Of a DNA stretch of 33,896 nucleotides, positions 2,005 to 14,234 are shown one piece after another. Within the stretch, counting starts at the first letter, position 1. The number at the start of each line of letters is the position of its first letter. The translations under genes and the position numbers were made by a program. Origin of the DNA: an uncultured Bacteroidota bacterium (GTDB taxonomy: Bacteria; Bacteroidota; Bacteroidia; Chitinophagales; Saprospiraceae). The notes under the pieces were generated by a model, which saw only the letters and a program-made list of their open reading frames with translations, was not told the origin of the DNA and did not search any database. The stretch is from NCBI GenBank assembly GCA_937861115.1, contig CALMBD010000057.1, positions 1 to 33,896 on the forward strand, read 5' to 3'.

Positions 2005-3033
2005 CTATTTGCCTTTTTGAAACAGTGCAAGGGCTTCCTTTAACTCGTTTAAAAACCGGGCGGCGTCCAAATTGAAGTCGCTCAGATGGAGCAGGTGCAT
2101 TCGGTGGTCAAAAACGGCAAAACACGGCTGATTGGTTCTATTGGTCAATACGATCTGCAGATGCTGATTGTATTGACCAATTGTTTTTACGGCCGTTTCC
2201 GGGAATCGCTTCCGGATTGTTTCCATGCGTGAAGGGGCCGGTTCCGTCCTGTCGTCGACATACAAATTGATCAGGTTGAAACTGTCCCTGATCAGGGAAA
2301 AAACACTGGCCTGGCTGAGGACGGATGATTCCATTTTTCGACAATTTACCGCTCCGAAGCCATTGAAATACAAGAGAATAGGTTTGGTAGTATCGCTTTC
2401 AGCCAACGCCTGATCAAAATCCATTGACGCCGGTAAATCACCTGCCGACAAGGTACGCTCCGTGTTTTCCGGCGCCAGTTTGCTGAACAGAAACGTCTCC
2501 TGCTCGTAAGCGTTGAATTCCTCAAACAGCCTCCCGTAGGTCAGTGCCGTTGACTCGCCGTCTTCTTCCAGTTTTTCCGACAAAAAGGTTTCCATGCGGT
2601 CAAGCAGATCATTGTCGTTTAGTGCGCCGGCAATTTCACTTTTGATATCGGGCCAGTTTTCTGCACTAACAGGTTGGTCAAGAATACGGGTGGCCAGTGC
2701 ATTCAGTTTTTCATACCTCAGTCGGGACTCCCGATAGGTTTCAGTTTGCTTAAGAGCCATTATCTCGTTGTACACGCCGCGAACAACAGGAATGTCCTTA
2801 TCCGACGAAATCGCCTGTATGATGGTAATTCCAAGAAAGAAAGGTTGCAGATCAAAACTGTCCAGACCGCAGTGCAACAAACTTTGCATCAACGAAAAGA
2901 GGGAATCCTGACTGCCGGGCTCCAGGTAAGAGGCGATTGGGGTATTTAATACCTTGTCACATTCTATTGATGGTTGAGCTGATAAGGATAAAAAGAAACA
3001 GAAACAGAACAAAAACGCCAAGGGTGTTTTCAT
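2005..3033 (-). CDS. Secreted thioredoxin-fold protein with a degenerate CxxC (AVNC)
   Basis: A 342-residue exported protein: signal peptide MKTPLAFLFCFCFFLSLSAQ, a helical region (about 25-195) with no recognised family, then a thioredoxin-like domain (about 200-335). The segment LLYFNGFGAVNCRKMES (220-236) matches the DsbD-gamma-like thioredoxins of Bacteroidota, where the motif is usually CVNC. Here the first, nucleophilic cysteine is alanine (A228) and only C231 remains. The loop TNRTNQPCFAVFD carries the likely cis-proline (P303) with a cysteine beside it. A normal dithiol exchange is therefore unlikely; single-cysteine chemistry, binding or a scaffold role are alternatives. Its ATG overlaps the stop of the upstream protease gene (ATGA at 3030-3033), indicating translational coupling. 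It is the last gene of the 6080-2005 operon. Confidence 0.65.
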   Translation of the reverse strand: MKTPLAFLFCFCFFLSLSAQPSIECDKVLNTPIASYLEPGSQDSLFSLMQSLLHCGLDSFDLQPFFLGITIIQAISSDKDIPVVRGVYNEIMALKQTETYRESRLRYEKLNALATRILDQPVSAENWPDIKSEIAGALNDNDLLDRMETFLSEKLEEDGESTALTYGRLFEEFNAYEQETFLFSKLAPENTERTLSAGDLPASMDFDQALAESDTTKPILLYFNGFGAVNCRKMESSVLSQASVFSLIRDSFNLINLYVDDRTEPAPSRMETIRKRFPETAVKTIGQYNQHLQIVLTNRTNQPCFAVFDHRMHLLHLSDFNLDAARFLNELKEALALFQKGK

Positions 3034-4361
3034 AGCAGATACCAGTTGCCGCGGTCCCCATTTTTAAACTCAATTACATTGGCTTTGGGCATACCCTTTT
3101 CACGGGCTTTGTTGCGCGCAATTTTCGCAGCATCCAGTGTTTTATACATGCCTACCAGGATACGGTAGTTTGGACTGTCCAGCATTTGTTCGACATAGAT
3201 TTCTCCAAACTCCTTATATGCATCGTATTTTGTTATATCAAGTGTTATTTTGGAGGAGGTGTATTCCAGCTGTATCCGGTAATAAGTGCCCTCGAGTTTT
3301 GGAGCAGTACTTTCGAATTCATGTTTGTCGTAATCTGCTGTGCCTTTGCCTTTGTACAGGAAATTCAGCTTTGAGCTATTCGAAACGGGCACAACAGCAG
3401 TCTTGGGTTGGGTGGCGCCCTTGGCATTACCAGTAAGGGCCGTCGATTTTTCCGTAGGAGCACTTCCCTGAGGCACTAACGAATTGCCGCTTGCCGGCAT
3501 TTGGCCATTCTGTAATGCCATCCTGGATGGATCCGTGCCGGCACCCGGCTTGTACTGTTCTGCGAAGGCCAAAGCCCCCGGTATTTCTGCTTGCAGGTCG
3601 GCATACCGGCGTTCGTGCGACGGGTGGGTACTCGCAAATTCCGGTGGTTGTTCTCCACCCATTTCAGCCATATGCTGCCAGATTTTTGGAGCTTCATTAA
3701 CATCATATCCAGCCAAAGCCATCAAGTAAAGCCCAATCTTATCTGCTTCAGACTCGTGTTTTCGACTAAAAGGAAGAATTAATCCATACTGAGCGCCTAA
3801 CCCGTATAAAGCGCGCAGCGATTCCCGTAATTCCGCATCACTCTGATCTGTGGCCGCTTCAACGGTTGCCTGACCGAGTTCTGCCAGCATCCTCTGACTA
3901 ACACGTTCGGCGCCATGATTGGCAAGGGCATGAGCAATTTCGTGTCCAAGAATGGCGGCAAGGCCGTCTGGGTTGTTTGTAACGGGTAGTATTCCGGTGT
4001 AAACCACAATTTTTCCTCCGGGCATGCAGGTTGCATTGGCTATTTCAGGGGCATTGATTACATTTACTTCCCACTCGTATCCTTTCAAATCGCTTTCTTT
4101 CCCTATTTTTCGATAGTACAAGTAGGTGGCATCAATTAAATTTTGGGTAATTTCACGTATAGCACCGACAAGCTCTTCATCCTGGCTTAAATGGCTGTTA
4201 TCAATCTCCTTCCGATATTCCGAGAAGGAATCCTTAAAAAGAGATTTTGGGTCGATCAACATGGTTTGTTGCCTTCCGGTAACAGAAGTGGTGGTACATT
4301 GCCCGGCGAGTGTACTTACCACAAGGAGGATAATAATGCGCAGATTTAGTTGGTTTTTCAT
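3030..4361 (-). CDS. M48-family metalloprotease, probable lipoprotein, with C-terminal SPOR-like domain
   Basis: A 443-residue zinc endopeptidase. The N-terminus is hydrophobic and reaches Cys22 in STLAGQCTTTSVTGR. This resembles the lipid-modified start of periplasmic M48 proteins (C, then VTGR), although Gln at -1 is atypical for a lipobox. The zinc motif is HEIAH at 140-144 (in GHEIAHALANHGAERVS), and the third ligand is expected in HESEADKIG (about 202-210). STHPSHERR (244-252) is the usual M48 C-terminal signature. A low-complexity Ala/Thr/Pro linker (about 268-330) leads to a region (about 359-443: YYRIQLEYTS, YRILVGMYKTLDAAKIARNKA, NWYLL) that looks like a SPOR fold, which in other proteins binds denuded peptidoglycan. 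A periplasmic quality-control (BepA-like) or wall-associated protease is plausible. It is the third gene of the operon; 54 nt separate it from the hexad-repeat gene upstream. Confidence 0.85.
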   Translation of the reverse strand: MKNQLNLRIIILLVVSTLAGQCTTTSVTGRQQTMLIDPKSLFKDSFSEYRKEIDNSHLSQDEELVGAIREITQNLIDATYLYYRKIGKESDLKGYEWEVNVINAPEIANATCMPGGKIVVYTGILPVTNNPDGLAAILGHEIAHALANHGAERVSQRMLAELGQATVEAATDQSDAELRESLRALYGLGAQYGLILPFSRKHESEADKIGLYLMALAGYDVNEAPKIWQHMAEMGGEQPPEFASTHPSHERRYADLQAEIPGALAFAEQYKPGAGTDPSRMALQNGQMPASGNSLVPQGSAPTEKSTALTGNAKGATQPKTAVVPVSNSSKLNFLYKGKGTADYDKHEFESTAPKLEGTYYRIQLEYTSSKITLDITKYDAYKEFGEIYVEQMLDSPNYRILVGMYKTLDAAKIARNKAREKGMPKANVIEFKNGDRGNWYLL

Positions 4362-4415: not shown

Positions 4416-5186
4416 TTATTGATCTACTTCATCATAGGGATGTTCCCAGTCGTAACTGTGTTTTGTATCGCGTTCATGTTGCAGGTCGTGTGCGTGTAAT
4501 TTGTCGTATTCATGCTGCATATCATAAGCGTGTAACACGTCGTACTCGTGTTGTGTGTCGTAAGCATGCTGGACATCGTAAGCGTGCACTACATCATAGG
4601 CATGGGCAAAATCGTATGCATGTGTTGCATAAACAACTCCATAGGAGATATAGGTATGCTGGCATGGCATAGTATGCGTACAAGCGATCGTATGGGTACA
4701 GGGTATCGAGTGTGTACAGGCAATCTGGTGTGTACAGGGGGTAGGGTGCGTACAGTTTGTTGTATGTGTACAAGGGGTAGTATGCTTGCATTCAATTTCG
4801 TGCGTGCAGGCTACCATATGCTTACATTCAGTTTTGTGCGTGCAGTCTACCCTTCGTTTTGTTTTTGTTGAGATAGGCGGCTGTTGCGTCGTTTGTGTGG
4901 AGACTGGCTGGGTTTCACGTACGGGCTCTTGAGCAGGTTTCGGATCAGGTGTACGGGAGGTTGTTGTGGCAGGTTTTTGCGATTTTCCTGCGGGTGCAGG
5001 AGCAGATTTTGGCTTGATTACCCCTTCAGAAGACGCCGGCTTGGTGTTGTTTGCCGGTTTTTCATCCTGGCTGGTTGCATTTGGATTTAGTGAGGTTTTG
5101 GAGTCTTTCCACCATTCGCTCTGAGCGGTAAGAGCAGATAGCTGGACTGAGGATAAAAACAGAAGGCACAGGTAGATTTTTTTCAT
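4416..5186 (-). CDS. Secreted Cys/His hexapeptide-repeat protein, family not recognised
   Basis: A 256-residue protein with a signal peptide (MKKIYLCLLFLSSVQLSALTAQ) and a Pro/Thr/Lys/Gln-rich linker (about 25-112). A repeat domain then fills the rest. Residues 115-177 hold eleven C-x-H-x-x-x hexads (Cys at 115, 121 and so on to 175). After one degenerate unit (SYGVVYATHAYD region) come eleven H-x-Y-D-x-x hexads (His at 189, 195 and so on to 249). The histidines share one register, 117+6k, across the whole domain; only residue 183 (Gly) breaks it. Such density of Cys, His and Asp suggests metal binding or a narrow beta-solenoid. No other domain is seen, and I do not recognise the family. It is the second gene of the operon, 24 nt after the EAD11-like/TPR gene. 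That it is a real gene is supported by strict protein-level periodicity with varied synonymous codons. Confidence 0.8.
   Translation of the reverse strand: MKKIYLCLLFLSSVQLSALTAQSEWWKDSKTSLNPNATSQDEKPANNTKPASSEGVIKPKSAPAPAGKSQKPATTTSRTPDPKPAQEPVRETQPVSTQTTQQPPISTKTKRRVDCTHKTECKHMVACTHEIECKHTTPCTHTTNCTHPTPCTHQIACTHSIPCTHTIACTHTMPCQHTYISYGVVYATHAYDFAHAYDVVHAYDVQHAYDTQHEYDVLHAYDMQHEYDKLHAHDLQHERDTKHSYDWEHPYDEVDQ
4431..4622 (-). repeat. Eleven H-x-Y-D-x-x hexapeptide units (18-bp period)
   Basis: This encodes residues 189-252 of the hexad-repeat protein. His opens every unit; Tyr-Asp follows at +2/+3 in nine of eleven units (variants HAHD and HERD). Codons for the same residues vary freely (CAT/CAC, TAT/TAC, GAT/GAC), so the repeat is old and kept at protein level instead of being a recent DNA expansion. 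Confidence 0.9.
4656..4844 (-). repeat. Eleven C-x-H-x-x-x hexapeptide units (18-bp period)
   Basis: This encodes residues 115-177 of the hexad-repeat protein: CTH in eight units, CKH in two and CQH in the last. The third to sixth positions vary. The His register continues into the H-x-Y-D block after skipping exactly one unit. Confidence 0.9.
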
Positions 5187-5210: not shown

Positions 5211-6080
5211 TCAATGGCGGTAAGCGTCGAGTAGTTTTTGAAACTCTTTTTCAGTTTTGTGTTCAAGAATGCCGGGGATGTTCTGAAAATCCCATCCGTT
5301 CCAGCGTTTTTGCAGCGCCTTTTCAAAATTACTGTAGAACCCTTCCCTATCGCTTCTTTTAGTGGCAATTTGTGCCAGGGTCACGTAGGCATATGGTGGC
5401 GCCGGATTCAAAACAATAGAACGTTGGGCATCGTCGTAAGCCATATCGATCTGACCGAGCATAAATCGTGTATCGGCTCTTTCGTTGTACAGTTCGGCGT
5501 TATCGGAAGAGAGATTAATTGCCTGGTCAAGCAATTCAAGTGATTTTTGATATTCCTTCTGCCTGGAATAACGATTAGCTTCCTCCCGCAAGGTTTGCAC
5601 TTTGGCCAGCTTTTCAGTTACGTTAAGCTCGCTGCTTTCCTTAATATTATTGTTTTTCAGTATTCCGCCGTTTACCAAAATGTAAGTTGATGCTAAAAGC
5701 ACAATTATTGCTGCAACTCCCCACACCACGGCCTTATTGCTTTTCCCAGGCTTAATGGCCAGTTCTTTTTCCTGGTAGGTATTGTACATTTCATTGGCAC
5801 GGGCAATGGCTGTTGTGTCGTCAAAATCCATCTGACCGACCTCCCCCAACAAGTTGATCAGTGCCTGTCTTGTTCTGGCGAGGTTTTGCAGTGCAGTATC
5901 GTGGTTGAGAATATTACCGAGGTAATCTTGTTCTGTCTGCTTGAGATTAGATTGTAGCAGCAGACATCGGTTAAACAGGTCCTCATTTTTGCCGCGTAAA
6001 AAGTCAGCTACAAGAAAAAGGGCGAGCTTAATCTTGTTCTCCCGTATCAAATTTTCAATACTGGCAATAAATGGTCTCAT
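5211..6080 (-). CDS. EAD11-like domain, transmembrane helix and TPR protein
   Basis: A 289-residue protein, first gene of the operon. Residues about 8-82 (ENLIRENKIKLALFLVADF, then LLLQSNLKQTEQDYLGNIL, then ARTRQALINLLGEV) follow the pattern of Effector-Associated Domain 11: a short helix ending in alternating Leu/Ala, an LLQSxL helix, a Gly turn, then an RxALxxLL helix. EADs are small adaptor domains known from bacterial conflict and signalling proteins, where they are thought to pair like with like. One membrane helix (about 117-137, VVWGVAAIIVLLASTYILVNG) follows. Residues about 157-260 contain roughly three TPR-like helical hairpins (ANRYSRQKEYQKSLELLDQAI; AELYNERADTRFMLGQIDMAY). There is no signal peptide, so an N-in orientation with periplasmic TPRs is likely but inferred. 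The EAD call is from pattern memory, not from a profile search. Confidence 0.65.
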   Translation of the reverse strand: MRPFIASIENLIRENKIKLALFLVADFLRGKNEDLFNRCLLLQSNLKQTEQDYLGNILNHDTALQNLARTRQALINLLGEVGQMDFDDTTAIARANEMYNTYQEKELAIKPGKSNKAVVWGVAAIIVLLASTYILVNGGILKNNNIKESSELNVTEKLAKVQTLREEANRYSRQKEYQKSLELLDQAINLSSDNAELYNERADTRFMLGQIDMAYDDAQRSIVLNPAPPYAYVTLAQIATKRSDREGFYSNFEKALQKRWNGWDFQNIPGILEHKTEKEFQKLLDAYRH

Positions 6081-8520: not shown

Positions 8521-9891
8521 TCATCCTTCGTCTTCCGTATCGGCAGCGTCTTCCTCAGGGGCATTTTTACTGCCGGTAGAGGGGTGGCCGGTGAAGTGCT
8601 TCAGCATGATGATCTCGCGTTGTGTCAGTTCCCGGAATGCACCGCGCGGAAGTTCTCTTTTTGTCAATCCGGCAAAATAAAAGCGGTCAAGTTTGAACAC
8701 TTCATATCCGAGTGTTTCAAACAGGCGACGCACCACCCGGTTGCGGCCGGAGGTAATCTCCAGTTCCACGATATCGCGCTCCGGATGATCTTCAGAAAAG
8801 CGAATCCAGTTCACCTCCATCAGCCCGTCTTCGAGTTCTACGCCGCGCTCAATATGCTCCAGGTCGGCCTGGGTCAGCGGTCTGCGCAGACCGACACGAT
8901 ACTGCTTTTGAATATTGTGACTGGGGTGCGAAAGCTTTTGCGCCAGGTCGCCGTCATTGGTAATCAGGAGCAAACCTGTCGTATCGCGGTCAAGACGGCC
9001 TACAGGATACAGGCGTTCGGGAAAATGCGGATCTACGATATCAATTACAGTTGGTCTGCCACGGTCGTCGTCGGTTGTAGTGATCACATTTTTGGGTTTG
9101 TTGATCAGCACATATACCATACGCTCCTGTATTTGTACGGGTTTCCCTTCGCAGGTGACGATGTCGCCTTTTTCGATACGATAGTACGGTTCTTTTTTCA
9201 CTTCACCGTTTACGGTCACCTGGCCCTGCTCGATAAACTCGACAGCTTTGCGGCGTGATGACACACCGCAGTGCGCCAGGTATTTATTCAGGGGCATGCC
9301 CTCTCCGGAAGGCAATCCGGGTTTGGGTTTGCGTTCAATAACAAAATCGTCCTTCTTGCGGAATGGTTTTTTACCAAATGGCTTTTTTCCGAAACCGCCA
9401 CCACCTTTGTTGTAGGGCTTTCGGTCATAACCGCCGCCACCGCCCTGATTTCGATCCTGCCAGGGCTTGCGTTCACCTTCGCCGCGATCCTGATAACGCG
9501 GCCGGTCGGGGTCGTAAGGGCGTTTTTGAAATCCACCGCCGCCGCTCTGATTTCGATCCTGCCAGGGTTTGCGTTCACCTTGATTTCGATCCTGCCAGGG
9601 CTTGCGCTCCCCTTCATTGCGGTCTTGCCAGGGTTTGCGTTCACCTTGATTTCGATCTTGCCAGGGTTTACGCTCGCCTTCGTTACGGTCTTGCCAGGGT
9701 TTGCGTTCACCTTGATTTCGGTCTTGCCAGGGTTTACGCTCCCCTTCATTGCGGTCTTGCCAGGGTTTGCGTTCGGATTTTTCATCCTGGTTTTCTGATT
9801 CGTCATCGGGGCGGTAGGTTTTCGGTCGCTCTTTCAGCGAGAAACCCGAGTCCGGTTTGGAAATACGCGGACGGCGTTTTTTTTCTTCCAT
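8521..9891 (-). CDS. rluB: RluB/RsuA-family rRNA pseudouridine synthase with repetitive N-terminal extension
   Basis: A 456-residue protein. The enzyme half (about 198-430) has an S4 RNA-binding domain (MPLNKYLAHCGVSSRRKAVE, then VTVNGEV) and a pseudouridine synthase domain. The latter shows the catalytic GRLDRDTTGLLLITNDGDLA segment with Asp301, plus KQYRVGLRRPL and TSGRNRVVRRLFETLGYEV, as in the RsuA/RluB/RluE/RluF branch that modifies 16S or 23S rRNA. Ahead of it, residues 1-197 are basic and disordered: seven tandem ERKPWQDRN[EQ]G units (40-116), an eighth copy at 140-150, then Gly-rich and KKPF-rich stretches. The tail is acidic (APEEDAADTEDEG). Such an extension probably contacts RNA non-specifically and resembles the disordered arms of Bacteroidota RNA-binding proteins. 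The exact target uridine cannot be told from sequence. Confidence 0.9.
   Translation of the reverse strand: MEEKKRRPRISKPDSGFSLKERPKTYRPDDESENQDEKSERKPWQDRNEGERKPWQDRNQGERKPWQDRNEGERKPWQDRNQGERKPWQDRNEGERKPWQDRNQGERKPWQDRNQSGGGGFQKRPYDPDRPRYQDRGEGERKPWQDRNQGGGGGYDRKPYNKGGGGFGKKPFGKKPFRKKDDFVIERKPKPGLPSGEGMPLNKYLAHCGVSSRRKAVEFIEQGQVTVNGEVKKEPYYRIEKGDIVTCEGKPVQIQERMVYVLINKPKNVITTTDDDRGRPTVIDIVDPHFPERLYPVGRLDRDTTGLLLITNDGDLAQKLSHPSHNIQKQYRVGLRRPLTQADLEHIERGVELEDGLMEVNWIRFSEDHPERDIVELEITSGRNRVVRRLFETLGYEVFKLDRFYFAGLTKRELPRGAFRELTQREIIMLKHFTGHPSTGSKNAPEEDAADTEDEG
9544..9774 (-). repeat. Seven tandem 33-bp coding repeats in the rluB-like gene
   Basis: Seven 11-codon units ERKPWQDRN[EQ]G run without interruption, with E and Q alternating in the first six, so the higher-order period is 66 bp. 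DNA identity between units is high, unlike the hexad repeat at 4431-4844, pointing to recent expansion and possible copy-number slippage. Confidence 0.9.
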
Positions 9892-10133: not shown

Positions 10134-13100
10134 TCAATTGCTTTTTACCCATTTTACCATATGCTGGATGCCTTCGCGGGTCAGAATCCTTAGGAAATAG
10201 ATACCTTCAGGTAGTTGATCAACGGAAATTTCATCCGAAAGTTCATTGGCGTCAATATGCTGTACCATTCGACCCTGCGGGGTGAAAATCTGTGCTGACA
10301 CCGGAGATAACCCGCTCATTTCCAATCGAATGGATGTTTGTGCCGGATTGGGCCATAAGCGCACTTGAACGGCTTGTCCCGGTTCATTCGTACCCACAGT
10401 ATTGCCGATCGTCACTGGCGCCAGCATGACGGAACAACCGTTTGCATCTATTATGGTGAGGGTGTAAACGCCGGCATTCAGCCCGGTGAGGTCTTCTTCA
10501 TTTGAGAAGAAGATGCCATTTTTTCTCCAGATGATCGAATATGGCGCTGCACCACCTACAGGTGTAATGCTGATGCTGCCGGTACCGAGACCGTTCGAAT
10601 CATTGACGATTCCATTGACCAACACGTCTGGTAAGGGGAAAACTGTCACGGTAAAGGAGCATTGTGCGGTATTGCCCAGGGCATCTGTCACCTGGAATAC
10701 CTGGGTTGTCACACCATCGTTGAAGGGTGATCCACTGGGTAAGCCACTGATCAACACAGGCTGTATACCGTTCAGACTGCAATTGTCGGAAATGACGGGC
10801 GCCGGATAATTCACCACATCTGCACCGCAAAAACTGATGCCGCCCGGACAGGCAATCTGAGGAGGAATATTGTCCGTAGCAATAATGGAAACAGCGCTAT
10901 TGGCAATACAGCCGTTGGCATCTGTAACGGTAACGCTGTAAGTAGCCACTCCGAGGTTTGATATGGTAGCCGTCGTATCTCCATTGCTCCACAAGTAATC
11001 AAATGGCAGTGTTCCACCTTCGAGCGTAACGGTGGCTTGTCCGGTAGTTTCGTTCAGGCAAACAACATTTTCCGAAGAAATACTGGCTATCGGCGCGCAA
11101 TTGAATGCGTTCACAATTACACTTTGAACACTGGTGCAGCCATTGGTGTCTGTGACGGTGACGCTGTAGGTTCCGGGCATGAGTCCCGAAATCGACTGAC
11201 TGGTGGCATTATTGCTCCAAAGATAAGTATAGGGAGATGTGCCGCCAGAGGGTTGGGCGCTTGCCGTGCCGTCATTGGCACCGAGCGCCGTTTCTGCGGT
11301 ACTGGTTGCGTTGGCGGCCAATACGGGAGGCTGGCTGATACTGATGCTGAGTGATGCCGGGCAATTATTCGCATCCAGAATCTGCACGCTGTATATGCCT
11401 GGCGCCAGTCCGGAAACCATTTGTGTTGTATCGCCATTCGACCATAGGTATGTTACCGGATCCACCGCTCCCATTAAACTTACCATTGCCGAACCATTGT
11501 TGGCGCCGTTGCAGGTAACATTATTGGCGCTAATACTTGCCGTAAGTGCACAATTGAAACTGTTGACTGTGACGGTTTGCACTGCAGTACAGTTGTTCAT
11601 ATCCGTAACGGTTACGGTATAGTTGCCGGGCGCCAGTCCGGAAATACTTGCTGTTATGGCATTATTGCTCCACAGGTAGGAATATCCGGGTGTACCACCG
11701 GTCGGCGCAGCGGTTGCCGTACCGTCGTTGGCGCCGAGTGCGGTTTCAGCGCTTGCGGTGGCATTTGCAACGAGCAGGGCTGGTTGACTGACCGTTGCGG
11801 TTGCCGTAGCGGAACAATTTTCGGCGTCGGTAACGGTTACGATATAGATTCCTGCGGCAAGGCCGGAAATGGTAGCAGTATTTCCGTTGTTGCTCCACAG
11901 ATAAGTATAACTTCCGTTGCCGCCACCCGGTGTTGCGGTAGCCGAGCCATTAGAGCCGCCATTGCAACTTACCTGCACGGATGAGGCCGATGCGGTCACA
12001 ACGGGTGTCTGGTTGACTGTTGCATTTGCCGTTGCAGTACATCCGTTTGCCGAGTTGCTGATCAACAAATTATATGTACCGGAAGCATTCACCACAGGAG
12101 TCAGGGAATTGGCGCCGGATACAATGTTACCATTTGCCGTGGTCCAGAGATATGTGAAATTGGGGCCTTGCGACGAACCGGAAGCATTAATTTGTATAGT
12201 AGCATTGTTGCAGTTCAGATTTCCCGGAGTGGCAATACTGGCTACAGGCGGTGTTGTATTCTGAACCACAGATGCGGTAGCTGTAGAGGTGCAACCGTTT
12301 GTTGTTGAAGTAACCGTAAGAACGTAGTTGCCGGGCGCGGTCACGGTCGGATTCTGCTGGCTGGAGGAAAAGTTGTTCGGTCCGGTCCATGCATATGTTA
12401 CGTTGGGTGCGCCGGCCGATCCGCCGTTAAGTTGAATACTGGAAACAACACAAGTCAAAGAACCACTGGCTGAAGCGGTCGCTCCGGGTGCATTTATGTT
12501 CTGTTGGACCGTTGCTGTGGCACTGTTGGTGCAACCATTGGCGGCCGTTATCACTACCGTATAATTGCCGGGTACGCTTACTGTCGGATTTTGAAGGGTA
12601 GATACAAAATTGTTGGGTCCTGTCCAGGAAAAGGTTCCCCCGACAGGATTGACGGTGGTATTGATTTGAATGCTGTTTACAGTACAGGTCAATTGACCGC
12701 TTGGGGTTGCTGCAATACTGGGCGGTACACTGTTTTGCGTTACCGTTGCAGAAGCGGTATTGGTACAGTTATTTGCAGGATTAGTGACAGTTACGGTATA
12801 AGTACCTGCCACACTTACCGTCGGATTTTGCAGGTTGGATGAAAAGCCTCCCGGTCCGCTCCATATATATGTAACACCCGGCGTATTGGACATGGCTGTC
12901 AACATAACCGACTGAACGGTACAGGTCAGGGCGCCCCCGTTGGCTGTTATATCGGGCGGTGAAATATTGCTGGATACGGTCGTGGAAGCTGTAGCCGTAC
13001 AACCGTTTGTTGAGTTGGTCACTTGGAGGGTATAGGTGCCTGCTGCATTGACAACCGGCATGAGTGTATTGGCTCCGGACACAATATTCCCATTTGCAGT

Positions 13101-14234
13101 CGTCCAGATGTAGGAAAAGTTGGGACCGGAAGAAGAGCCCGAACCGTTCAGGGTTACTTGCGGTTGCGCGCAGGTCAGGACGCCAACCGGACCCGCATTA
13201 GCAGTTGGCTGGACTGCGTTAATACCAATATTAAAGGTAGCCACCTTTGTGCAACCATTATTGTCGGTAACAGTAAGGGAGTGTGTTCCTGCCGAAGTGT
13301 ACACCGCAGGGTTGCCGGTAGCACCGTTCGACCAGTCATATATGTACGAAGGCGTACCCCCGGAAACTGTTGCGGTTACGTTTACGGATTGCTGTAAACA
13401 CGTCAGTAAGCCGGAGGGTGTAGCTGTTGCATTCAGTATGGGGGGCTGGGTGATGGCGGCGGTAGCAGTGGCAGTACCTGATCCACTTGAACCGGTTACA
13501 GTTACGGTATAAGTGCCTGCAACAAGGTTAACGGCAGTTTGACCCGTTTGTCCATTGCTCCATTGATAGAGGTATGGTGGCAAACCACCGGAAGCCTCTA
13601 CTGTTGCACTTCCGGTATTGCCCCCGAAACAGGATACATTATTTGTGCTGATGATAGACGCCACAACGGGTGGAGGACCGCTAAAATCAAAGGTTTGGGA
13701 AAAGGCGATCGGAAAATCGCCGGTGTCCATGTTATTGTTATTGGTGAAGTTTCCAATAAAATAGAATTTGATGATGTTGCCACTGGCATTGGCAGGAGAA
13801 GTCCAGTTGAAGTTCCAGGAGACCGGACCTCCGCCTACAAAGGTTTTTCCGTTCCGGTGTTCGATATATTCCCGGCCGTTTAAAAACTCTGTCCCGGCTT
13901 GAGCGTTCACGGCTGCCAGGTTACCGGCATTTTGGTTGCTGCCGTTCACGGCAACCAATTGAAAACCGCCCTTAACAGGAGAACCTGCTGTTGGTGTCAT
14001 GGTGAGCACCATTGGGTAAGTGGTGTTGGGTTCAATGGTGGAAGGCAGACCACTGATTTCGACAATGCCATCGAAGCCACCCGGATTGGCGCCACCATGA
14101 CAATTGTTGCAATGTCCATCGAAGGGAGCACCGGTATTGCCGTTTGGTGGGTTGGCATTGTTGCCCAACCAGACAAGTACACCAAGGAGTAAACCAGCAA
14201 AAGGCAACAAGCGGGAGTTGCGGATTGTAATCAT
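10134..14234 (-). CDS. Giant T9SS-secreted adhesin with SprB-like repeats
   Basis: A 1366-residue surface protein. An N-terminal hydrophobic segment (1-25) is followed by an NTGAPFDGHCNNCHGG motif and a beta domain to about 186, as in the choice-of-anchor V / reelin-like N-termini of Bacteroidota; CNNCH has the form of a c-type heme site. Next come an SprB-like repeat (about 195-245), about seven Ig/PKD-like repeats (about 265-740; TYTVTVTNxxNGCT type), four to five SprB-like repeats (750-1110; NVSCxGxNNGSA, YLWSNGxTT, GLAPGxYxVTVTDxNxC), a HYR domain (about 1122-1200; IPPQIACP, VISDNCS, QVTDALGN) and one more SprB-like unit. The C-terminus (about 1292-1366; LWPNPAQTSIRLEM, LPEGIYFLRI, HMVKWVK) is a type A T9SS sorting domain. 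Adhesion or gliding roles are inferred from SprB. It is monocistronic. Confidence 0.88.
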   Translation of the reverse strand: MITIRNSRLLPFAGLLLGVLVWLGNNANPPNGNTGAPFDGHCNNCHGGANPGGFDGIVEISGLPSTIEPNTTYPMVLTMTPTAGSPVKGGFQLVAVNGSNQNAGNLAAVNAQAGTEFLNGREYIEHRNGKTFVGGGPVSWNFNWTSPANASGNIIKFYFIGNFTNNNNMDTGDFPIAFSQTFDFSGPPPVVASIISTNNVSCFGGNTGSATVEASGGLPPYLYQWSNGQTGQTAVNLVAGTYTVTVTGSSGSGTATATAAITQPPILNATATPSGLLTCLQQSVNVTATVSGGTPSYIYDWSNGATGNPAVYTSAGTHSLTVTDNNGCTKVATFNIGINAVQPTANAGPVGVLTCAQPQVTLNGSGSSSGPNFSYIWTTANGNIVSGANTLMPVVNAAGTYTLQVTNSTNGCTATASTTVSSNISPPDITANGGALTCTVQSVMLTAMSNTPGVTYIWSGPGGFSSNLQNPTVSVAGTYTVTVTNPANNCTNTASATVTQNSVPPSIAATPSGQLTCTVNSIQINTTVNPVGGTFSWTGPNNFVSTLQNPTVSVPGNYTVVITAANGCTNSATATVQQNINAPGATASASGSLTCVVSSIQLNGGSAGAPNVTYAWTGPNNFSSSQQNPTVTAPGNYVLTVTSTTNGCTSTATASVVQNTTPPVASIATPGNLNCNNATIQINASGSSQGPNFTYLWTTANGNIVSGANSLTPVVNASGTYNLLISNSANGCTATANATVNQTPVVTASASSVQVSCNGGSNGSATATPGGGNGSYTYLWSNNGNTATISGLAAGIYIVTVTDAENCSATATATVSQPALLVANATASAETALGANDGTATAAPTGGTPGYSYLWSNNAITASISGLAPGNYTVTVTDMNNCTAVQTVTVNSFNCALTASISANNVTCNGANNGSAMVSLMGAVDPVTYLWSNGDTTQMVSGLAPGIYSVQILDANNCPASLSISISQPPVLAANATSTAETALGANDGTASAQPSGGTSPYTYLWSNNATSQSISGLMPGTYSVTVTDTNGCTSVQSVIVNAFNCAPIASISSENVVCLNETTGQATVTLEGGTLPFDYLWSNGDTTATISNLGVATYSVTVTDANGCIANSAVSIIATDNIPPQIACPGGISFCGADVVNYPAPVISDNCSLNGIQPVLISGLPSGSPFNDGVTTQVFQVTDALGNTAQCSFTVTVFPLPDVLVNGIVNDSNGLGTGSISITPVGGAAPYSIIWRKNGIFFSNEEDLTGLNAGVYTLTIIDANGCSVMLAPVTIGNTVGTNEPGQAVQVRLWPNPAQTSIRLEMSGLSPVSAQIFTPQGRMVQHIDANELSDEISVDQLPEGIYFLRILTREGIQHMVKWVKSN
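11097..11315 (-). repeat. Duplicated adhesin segment, copy B
   Basis: This encodes residues 974-1046 (ANATSTAETALGANDGTA to AFNC), closely matching residues 823-895 encoded at 11550-11768. The offset is exactly 151 residues, which equals one pair of SprB-like modules, so a two-module block was duplicated. Confidence 0.75.
11550..11768 (-). repeat. Duplicated adhesin segment, copy A
   Basis: This encodes residues 823-895 (ANATASAETALGANDGTA to SFNC). It is the partner of the segment at 11097-11315; the proteins are alike along the whole length with no gaps. Confidence 0.75.
12024..12182 (-). repeat. Second duplicated adhesin segment, distal copy
   Basis: Residues 685-737 contain WTTANGNIVSGANSLTPVVN and repeat residues 365-417 (encoded at 12984-13142) almost without change, 320 residues apart. 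Confidence 0.7.
12984..13142 (-). repeat. Second duplicated adhesin segment, proximal copy
   Basis: Residues 365-417 contain WTTANGNIVSGANTLMPVVN, the partner of the copy at 12024-12182. The intervening Ig-like modules are more diverged, which suggests gene conversion or a later copy event. Confidence 0.7.

Follow-up and report, generated by a model that had tools for sequence, protein, structure and literature searches.

Genes and features at the locus

The stretch of DNA analysed here (the window) comprises 33,896 nucleotides from an uncultured Saprospiraceae bacterium. It carries a gene for a small protein whose C-terminal part is an array of six-residue units, and this gene sits in a same-strand run with EAD11/TPR, M48 and weakly thioredoxin-like genes. 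The units are of two kinds, CxH(xxx) and HxxD(xx), here abbreviated C and H, and form a C arm and an H arm separated by a turn.

5211..6080, minus strand: upstream gene, effector-associated domain 11 plus TPR (Pfam EAD11 2.4e-8, TPR_2 2.1e-8), 24 bases before the array gene
4416..5186, minus strand: array protein, 256 aa, stand-alone open reading frame, single copy found in the draft genome
5121..5186, minus strand: likely signal peptide, residues 1-22 (by eye)
4845..5120, minus strand: Pro/Thr/Lys-rich linker, residues 23-114 (from the sequence)
4656..4844, minus strand: C arm, 11 CxH units, residues 115-177 (unit count)
4623..4655, minus strand: turn TYISYGVVYAT, residues 178-188, 11 residues, as long as in relatives L268, L176 and L258
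4431..4622, minus strand: H arm, 11 HxxD units, residues 189-252 (unit count)
3030..4361, minus strand: downstream gene, M48 metallopeptidase (PF01435, 9.8e-35), HExxH invariant in the alignment
2005..3033, minus strand: thioredoxin-like gene (PF13899, 9.2e-4, below cutoff), its start overlapping the M48 stop

The array protein is probably exported, as judged by eye from its N-terminal sequence. No second array gene was found in this draft genome, the other match being the antisense of the same place. By inspection, the EAD11 and TPR parts of the upstream gene are joined via a probable membrane segment. Elsewhere in the window we noted by eye a pseudouridine-synthase-like open reading frame (8521-9891) whose N-terminal part contains a GERKPWQDRNQ repeat, and a 1366-aa frame (10134-14234) with repeated Ig-like segments and a probable C-terminal secretion tail.

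Twenty-two units in a single register

Residues 115-252 hold 11 CxHxxx and 11 HxxDxx units in a single six-residue register. His occurs at every sixth residue at 117-177 (11 positions) and at 189-249 (11 positions), with Cys two residues N-terminal of each C-arm His (115-175), a Gly at residue 183 between the arms, and one extra His (233) outside the register. In the H arm, Asp lies three past His in 11/11 units and Tyr two past His in 9/11, the HAHD and HERD units being without it; the H-unit consensus is thus HxxD with a usual aromatic and not a strict HxYD. The preliminary description had placed 22 His in one period-six register with Gly at 183, and eleven Cys/His units followed by eleven His units; both were reproduced residue by residue, and its coordinates (4431-4844) are exact, corresponding to residues 252 to 115. 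Its Tyr-Asp rule stands for Asp and fails as a strict rule for Tyr.

When residues 113-253 were shuffled 20,000 times, the best six-residue phase collected at most 12 His, versus 22 observed. Synonymous codons vary, as had been claimed (Cys TGT 7/TGC 4, His CAT 12/CAC 11, four Thr codons), and the 18-base units are all distinct (23/23), so that a recent DNA repeat can be ruled out. A frame artefact is argued against by the array relatives in other phyla. The c-type cytochrome haem motif CxxCH is absent from the protein sequence, the units being CxH.

Relatives and distribution

Eight array relatives were found in Bacteroidota, Planctomycetota and Acidobacteriota, and in 9/9 proteins (window plus relatives) the array forms the C-terminal part. 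Their architectures and unit orders are as follows.

Window: C11-turn-H11, 11/11 rungs fitting mirror pairing
L268 (same protein as L235), Chitinophagaceae PMP191F: HExxHxxGxxH peptidase, pYEATS, then array; C9-turn-H9
L257, Planctomycetota or Planctomycetaceae: N-terminal domain common to L246, L250, L252 and L257, then array; C13-turn-H13
L246, affiliation and domain as L257: C10 H2-turn-C2 H10
L250, likewise: C12 H2-turn-C2 H12
L252, likewise: C11 H1-turn-C1 H11, variant units allowed
L176, Planctomycetaceae: N-terminal domain of unknown kind, then array; C4-turn-H4
L286, same phylum as L246: a partial protein kinase domain, followed by a segment hydrophobic by eye, a stretch of charged residues and the array; C1 H10-turn-C10 H1 by motif, C1 H11-turn-C11 H1 by six-residue register
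L258, Pyrinomonadaceae: array incomplete at contig end

The four proteins with the common domain come from four of 17 genomes of one order, and the N-terminal domains of L246, L250 and L257 are 31-34% identical to that of L252. In L268, Peptidase_M10 and Astacin score just below their cutoffs and pYEATS just above. The smallest array found, that of L176, packs four rungs into 58 residues. A seven-residue variant unit, HPxG[DH], was noted in the H arms of L252 and L258. The earlier suggestion of one periodic fold raised the question of whether homologues lose the period; they keep it, L252, L258 and L286 being locally irregular.

The distribution is sparse among the genomes sampled. C/H arrays were found in 1/60 genomes of the window's relatives (its own; 1 matched), the 59 others giving no array match at E 0.001, and in 1/318 of its own family (again its own; 7 matched), 2/395 of its class (4 matched) and 2/296 of its phylum (4 matched). 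Corresponding counts were 1/157 for the family of L268 (6 matched), 5/392 for the phylum of L246 (18 matched), 4/17 for the order of L257 (5 matched), 1/10 for the order of L286 (4 matched) and 1/297 for the phylum of L258 (17 matched). These samples overlap, and matches without an array were dropped by script or by eye.

A pattern scan of genome contigs gave at least 7 members among at least 115 loci. In viral contigs, four consecutive CxHxxx units matched at least 120 stretches, and none of the fetched loci among the matches listed had both arms (script); two further patterns gave 0 hits there, and a protein-based viral search none. Plasmid and phage searches returned weak matches only, the best among those listed having E values of 4e-4, 0.6 and 7e-4. 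Period-six arrays of one letter do exist, C-only in L331 and viral contigs and H-only in Nocardioides. L331, from the family of L268, has about 20 near-identical C units in a 158-aa frame and was set aside, by judgement, as a simple repeat; the viral C-only arrays were likewise taken by eye for simple-repeat frames. The Nocardioides arrays (L207, L209, L225, L226) are short, with 3-6 copies of HPYDLS, HPFDVS, HPFDIG or HPYDEG and no C arm, and sit in frames of 548-708 aa resembling subtilases on inspection. They are possibly unrelated to the C/H arrays, or an unpaired cousin.

Unit order is a mirror complement

In every one of the eight complete arrays, two units that stand at equal distance from the turn, one on either side, always bear different letters, one C and the other H. 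This mirror complement holds in 8/8, two of which need variant units read in register, and the window array belongs to the family so defined (C arm and H arm, period six, mirrored order). The first tokeniser was written after the sequences had been seen, and the pairing rule was framed on those same sequences. A parameter-free tokeniser (C.H, H..D) recovers an exact mirror complement in 6/8 arrays, the others being L252 (C11 H1-turn-C1 H9) and L286 (C1 H8-turn-C9 H1). The strict reading of L252 falls short because HPDGD and HPEGH occupy two expected H-unit places; the variant units of L286 are HxxH and VSH and, by register, also YRLE and DCA. Applied to 27,113 open reading frames (351 loci, mostly fetched by array patterns or profiles themselves; at least 3 units per letter), the strict tokeniser returned the window, L176, L235, L246, L250, L252, L257 and the incomplete L258, and, apart from an irregular L260, known members only. 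The turn of L286 is longer than the permitted gap, and this protein was therefore missed.

The four compound arrays separate the two possible registers. Mirror pairing fits all rungs in 4/4 and parallel pairing in 0/4 (8/12, 10/14, 10/12 and 10/12 rungs); parallel pairing is thus excluded and an antiparallel arrangement indicated. In the four Planctomycetota arrays with a common N-terminal domain, outer blocks number 10, 12, 11 and 13 and inner blocks 2, 2, 1 and 0, both sides being equal each time; such equal changes on two sides correspond, in a protein, to compensatory changes. In L286 the order is the reverse of that in the other arrays, and the mirror rule still fits. By register, its Cys-less unit VSH (index 20 of 24) mirrors a unit without His or Asp, YRLE (index 5), a coincidence that was noticed post hoc and has a chance of about one in eleven. 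When the 12 mirrored block lengths were permuted, at most 10 matched in 300,000 shuffles, versus 12 observed; with one outer block per protein (n=8), all 8 matched in 17/300,000 shuffles. Both permutations ignore kinship.

Finer tests of the register gave mixed support. Unit similarity across rungs reached a combined z of 3.4 for the mirror versus 2.2 for the parallel register (L176 and L286 left out), with mirror and parallel p values of 0.003 and 0.19 for L268, 0.016 and 0.001 for L252, 0.09 and 0.79 for L250, 0.14 and 0.21 for the window, 0.18 and 0.63 for L257, and 0.69 and 0.03 for L246. The evidence from charge distribution is also mixed, with p 0.003 in L246, 0.057 in the window, and no signal in L250, L252, L257 or L176. 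The repeat family itself is solid, and the pairing rule, with the proviso on its framing given above, is strong.

A probable turn and a proposed antiparallel hairpin

The lengths between the arms are close to fixed by type. C-to-H turns measure 11 residues in 4/5 arrays (window, L268, L176, L258) and 8 in L257, with the motif TPYG in L268, L176 and L258; H-to-C turns measure 9 residues in 4/4, where L286 qualifies on condition that one degenerate unit is counted. At the C-to-H junctions within the arms of compound arrays (n=8), exactly two residues lie between the two His. What had been described as a single skipped unit at the centre of the window array fits such a turn. The earlier proposal of one elongated fold with two ligand faces is upheld in part: equal counts recur in the complete arrays, and antiparallel halves, not one continuous two-faced run, are what the four compound arrays suggest.

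We lean, with somewhat more confidence than doubt, towards an extracytoplasmic module that folds back at the turn into an antiparallel, metal-bridged hairpin and possibly acts as a switch. The two arms would lie antiparallel and in register, and each rung would bring Cys and His of one arm to face His and Asp of the other. Such a set of four ligand-type residues would suit one divalent metal, most likely zinc. Arms would lengthen, or change letter type, only together, and the module may fold upon metal binding.

The palindromic order of the units would also allow antiparallel pairing of two chains, C arm to H arm, to give metal-clamped dimers or fibres. Mirror complementarity fits this intermolecular duplex equally well, and assembly outside the cell is possible for exported proteins. 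A Gly-containing turn of near-fixed length by type is, however, what a hairpin needs, and would be the mismatched middle of a duplex; we regard pairing between chains as unlikely. A surface or adhesion module held by Cys-Cys disulfides, in which His and Asp are not metal ligands, would agree with the likely extracytoplasmic location and with the weakly thioredoxin-like gene two genes downstream. Against it stand the odd Cys counts (11, 9, 13), the conservation of units as C-x-H, and the mirrored register itself, in which C faces H and not C, and we consider it very improbable.

Comparison with known families and structure models

Over the array part, including that of the fused relatives, Pfam and NCBIfam gave nothing above curated cutoffs. 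The best NCBIfam model for the array protein, TIGR04526, reached 16.9 of 150 bits, mainly over the linker. Among PDB chains none was significant, with a best phmmer E of 0.086 and a best profile E of 0.33. PHROG 15341, an uncurated phage family of unknown function with no curated cutoff, matched residues 113-210 weakly (E 1.7e-4, 22.1 bits), and the L257 array had no PHROG match. The statement that no family with this pattern was known thus holds at curated Pfam and NCBIfam cutoffs and for PDB sequences, the weak PHROG match aside, and no confident match to a characterised repeat family emerged from these three sources. In these searches we found no named family with the apparent mirror-complement CxH/HxxD arrangement. 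Among the literature matches listed, with most subscription journals outside the scope of the search, none described such an array, and neither did the passages of PMC10957091, PMC3482391 and PMC7159879 that were considered.

The best PDB profile match, 1ezg, is a thermal hysteresis protein. Tenebrio-type antifreeze proteins of this kind are 12-residue beta-solenoids with disulfides. In the profile alignment 1ezg resembles the array as a short repeat protein with Cys every six residues, but it lacks CxH units, an HxxD arm and a mirrored order. This match and the period of six would agree with a solenoid arrangement, either a pair packed together or a single narrow one of 12-residue coils, with each arm binding metal alone; a narrow beta-solenoid was among the folds suggested earlier. 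A solenoid has, however, no inherent requirement for equal or mirrored counts, and odd block lengths (9, 11, 13, 1) would leave half coils. Block lengths being both odd and even, one unit per rung fits better than two-unit coils, and we judge a solenoid to be decidedly improbable.

Two AF2 models, built without metal from alignments of 6 and 4 sequences, had pLDDT values of 39.8 and 34.7, lay almost entirely below 50, and displayed no hairpin at this low confidence. A disordered prediction, together with no metal binding, had been named as a result that would count against the earlier proposal; the low scores point that way, as far as metal-free models from shallow alignments can. They would suit a disordered tail that chelates metal as histidine-rich proteins do, a metal sponge in which pairing is undefined. 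The Plasmodium histidine-rich protein PF05403 shares with the array a high His content at short regular spacing, but the compositional match (13.4 bits, E 0.068) is far below the gathering score of 45.8 and places the array outside that family. PF05403 is not known to have a Cys arm. A sponge offers no reason for the register, the equal counts, the mirrored order or the near-fixed turns in three phyla, and we think this explanation improbable.

The exported bacterial protein ZepA binds zinc through a single H-x2-9-H-[FY]-H pocket (PMC10957091). The array protein is likewise putatively exported, with zinc as the proposed metal, but the passages of that paper considered describe ZepA without a repeat array.

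Genomic context

An M48 match is present in 41/42 genomes of the genus (own included). The best copies elsewhere in the genus share 43-50% identity with the window copy, and a second copy in the same genome (G000:C256:7131-7898) shares 47% over the peptidase part; thus nothing close to the window copy turned up. The window copy carries a weak C-terminal SPOR match (E 0.013, below cutoff) and, among NCBIfam models, resembles BepA and LoiP at scores under their cutoffs. M48 peptidases of the BepA/LoiP type are comparable in that an M48 gene adjoins the window array and a weakly M48-like domain is fused to the array in four Planctomycetota, but the array itself matches no accessory domain, and the HExxH Glu is missing in 3/4 fused domains. 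The M48 link of these N-terminal domains is weak (hhalign 48%, E 1.8e-4; Pfam E 0.018 in 1/4).

In the genome of L176, the array gene has a caspase-like gene (L350:6346-7176, PF00656, 6.2e-22) as its immediate upstream neighbour, and the gene ahead of the caspase-like one matches DUF4831. Predicted conflict systems of bacteria repeatedly contain EAD, pYEATS and caspase domains. A conflict-system role of array proteins is possible; the defence library PADLOC gave no match for five proteins, and the passages of PMC7159879 considered contain nothing on such an array.

Implications

What would be new here is the unit order, which appears self-complementary when mirrored. The module could act as a rod or switch dependent on metal, presenting or regulating a fused or adjacent enzyme, such as the peptidases, the membrane kinase and, in the window, the product of the neighbouring M48 gene. 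More tentatively, and with doubt slightly prevailing, we propose a general two-letter code (CxH, HxxD) in which units pair solely with the opposite letter, antiparallel and with one metal per pair, arm length and order co-evolve, and the resulting hairpins or fibres, intra- or intermolecular, switch peptidases and kinases outside the cytoplasm. If true, no structure would be needed to read the pairing, the sequence sufficing as it does for RNA, and the array would be a length-tunable, metal-clamped protein hairpin and a new extracytoplasmic module on peptidase-like and kinase proteins of Bacteroidota, Planctomycetota and Acidobacteriota.
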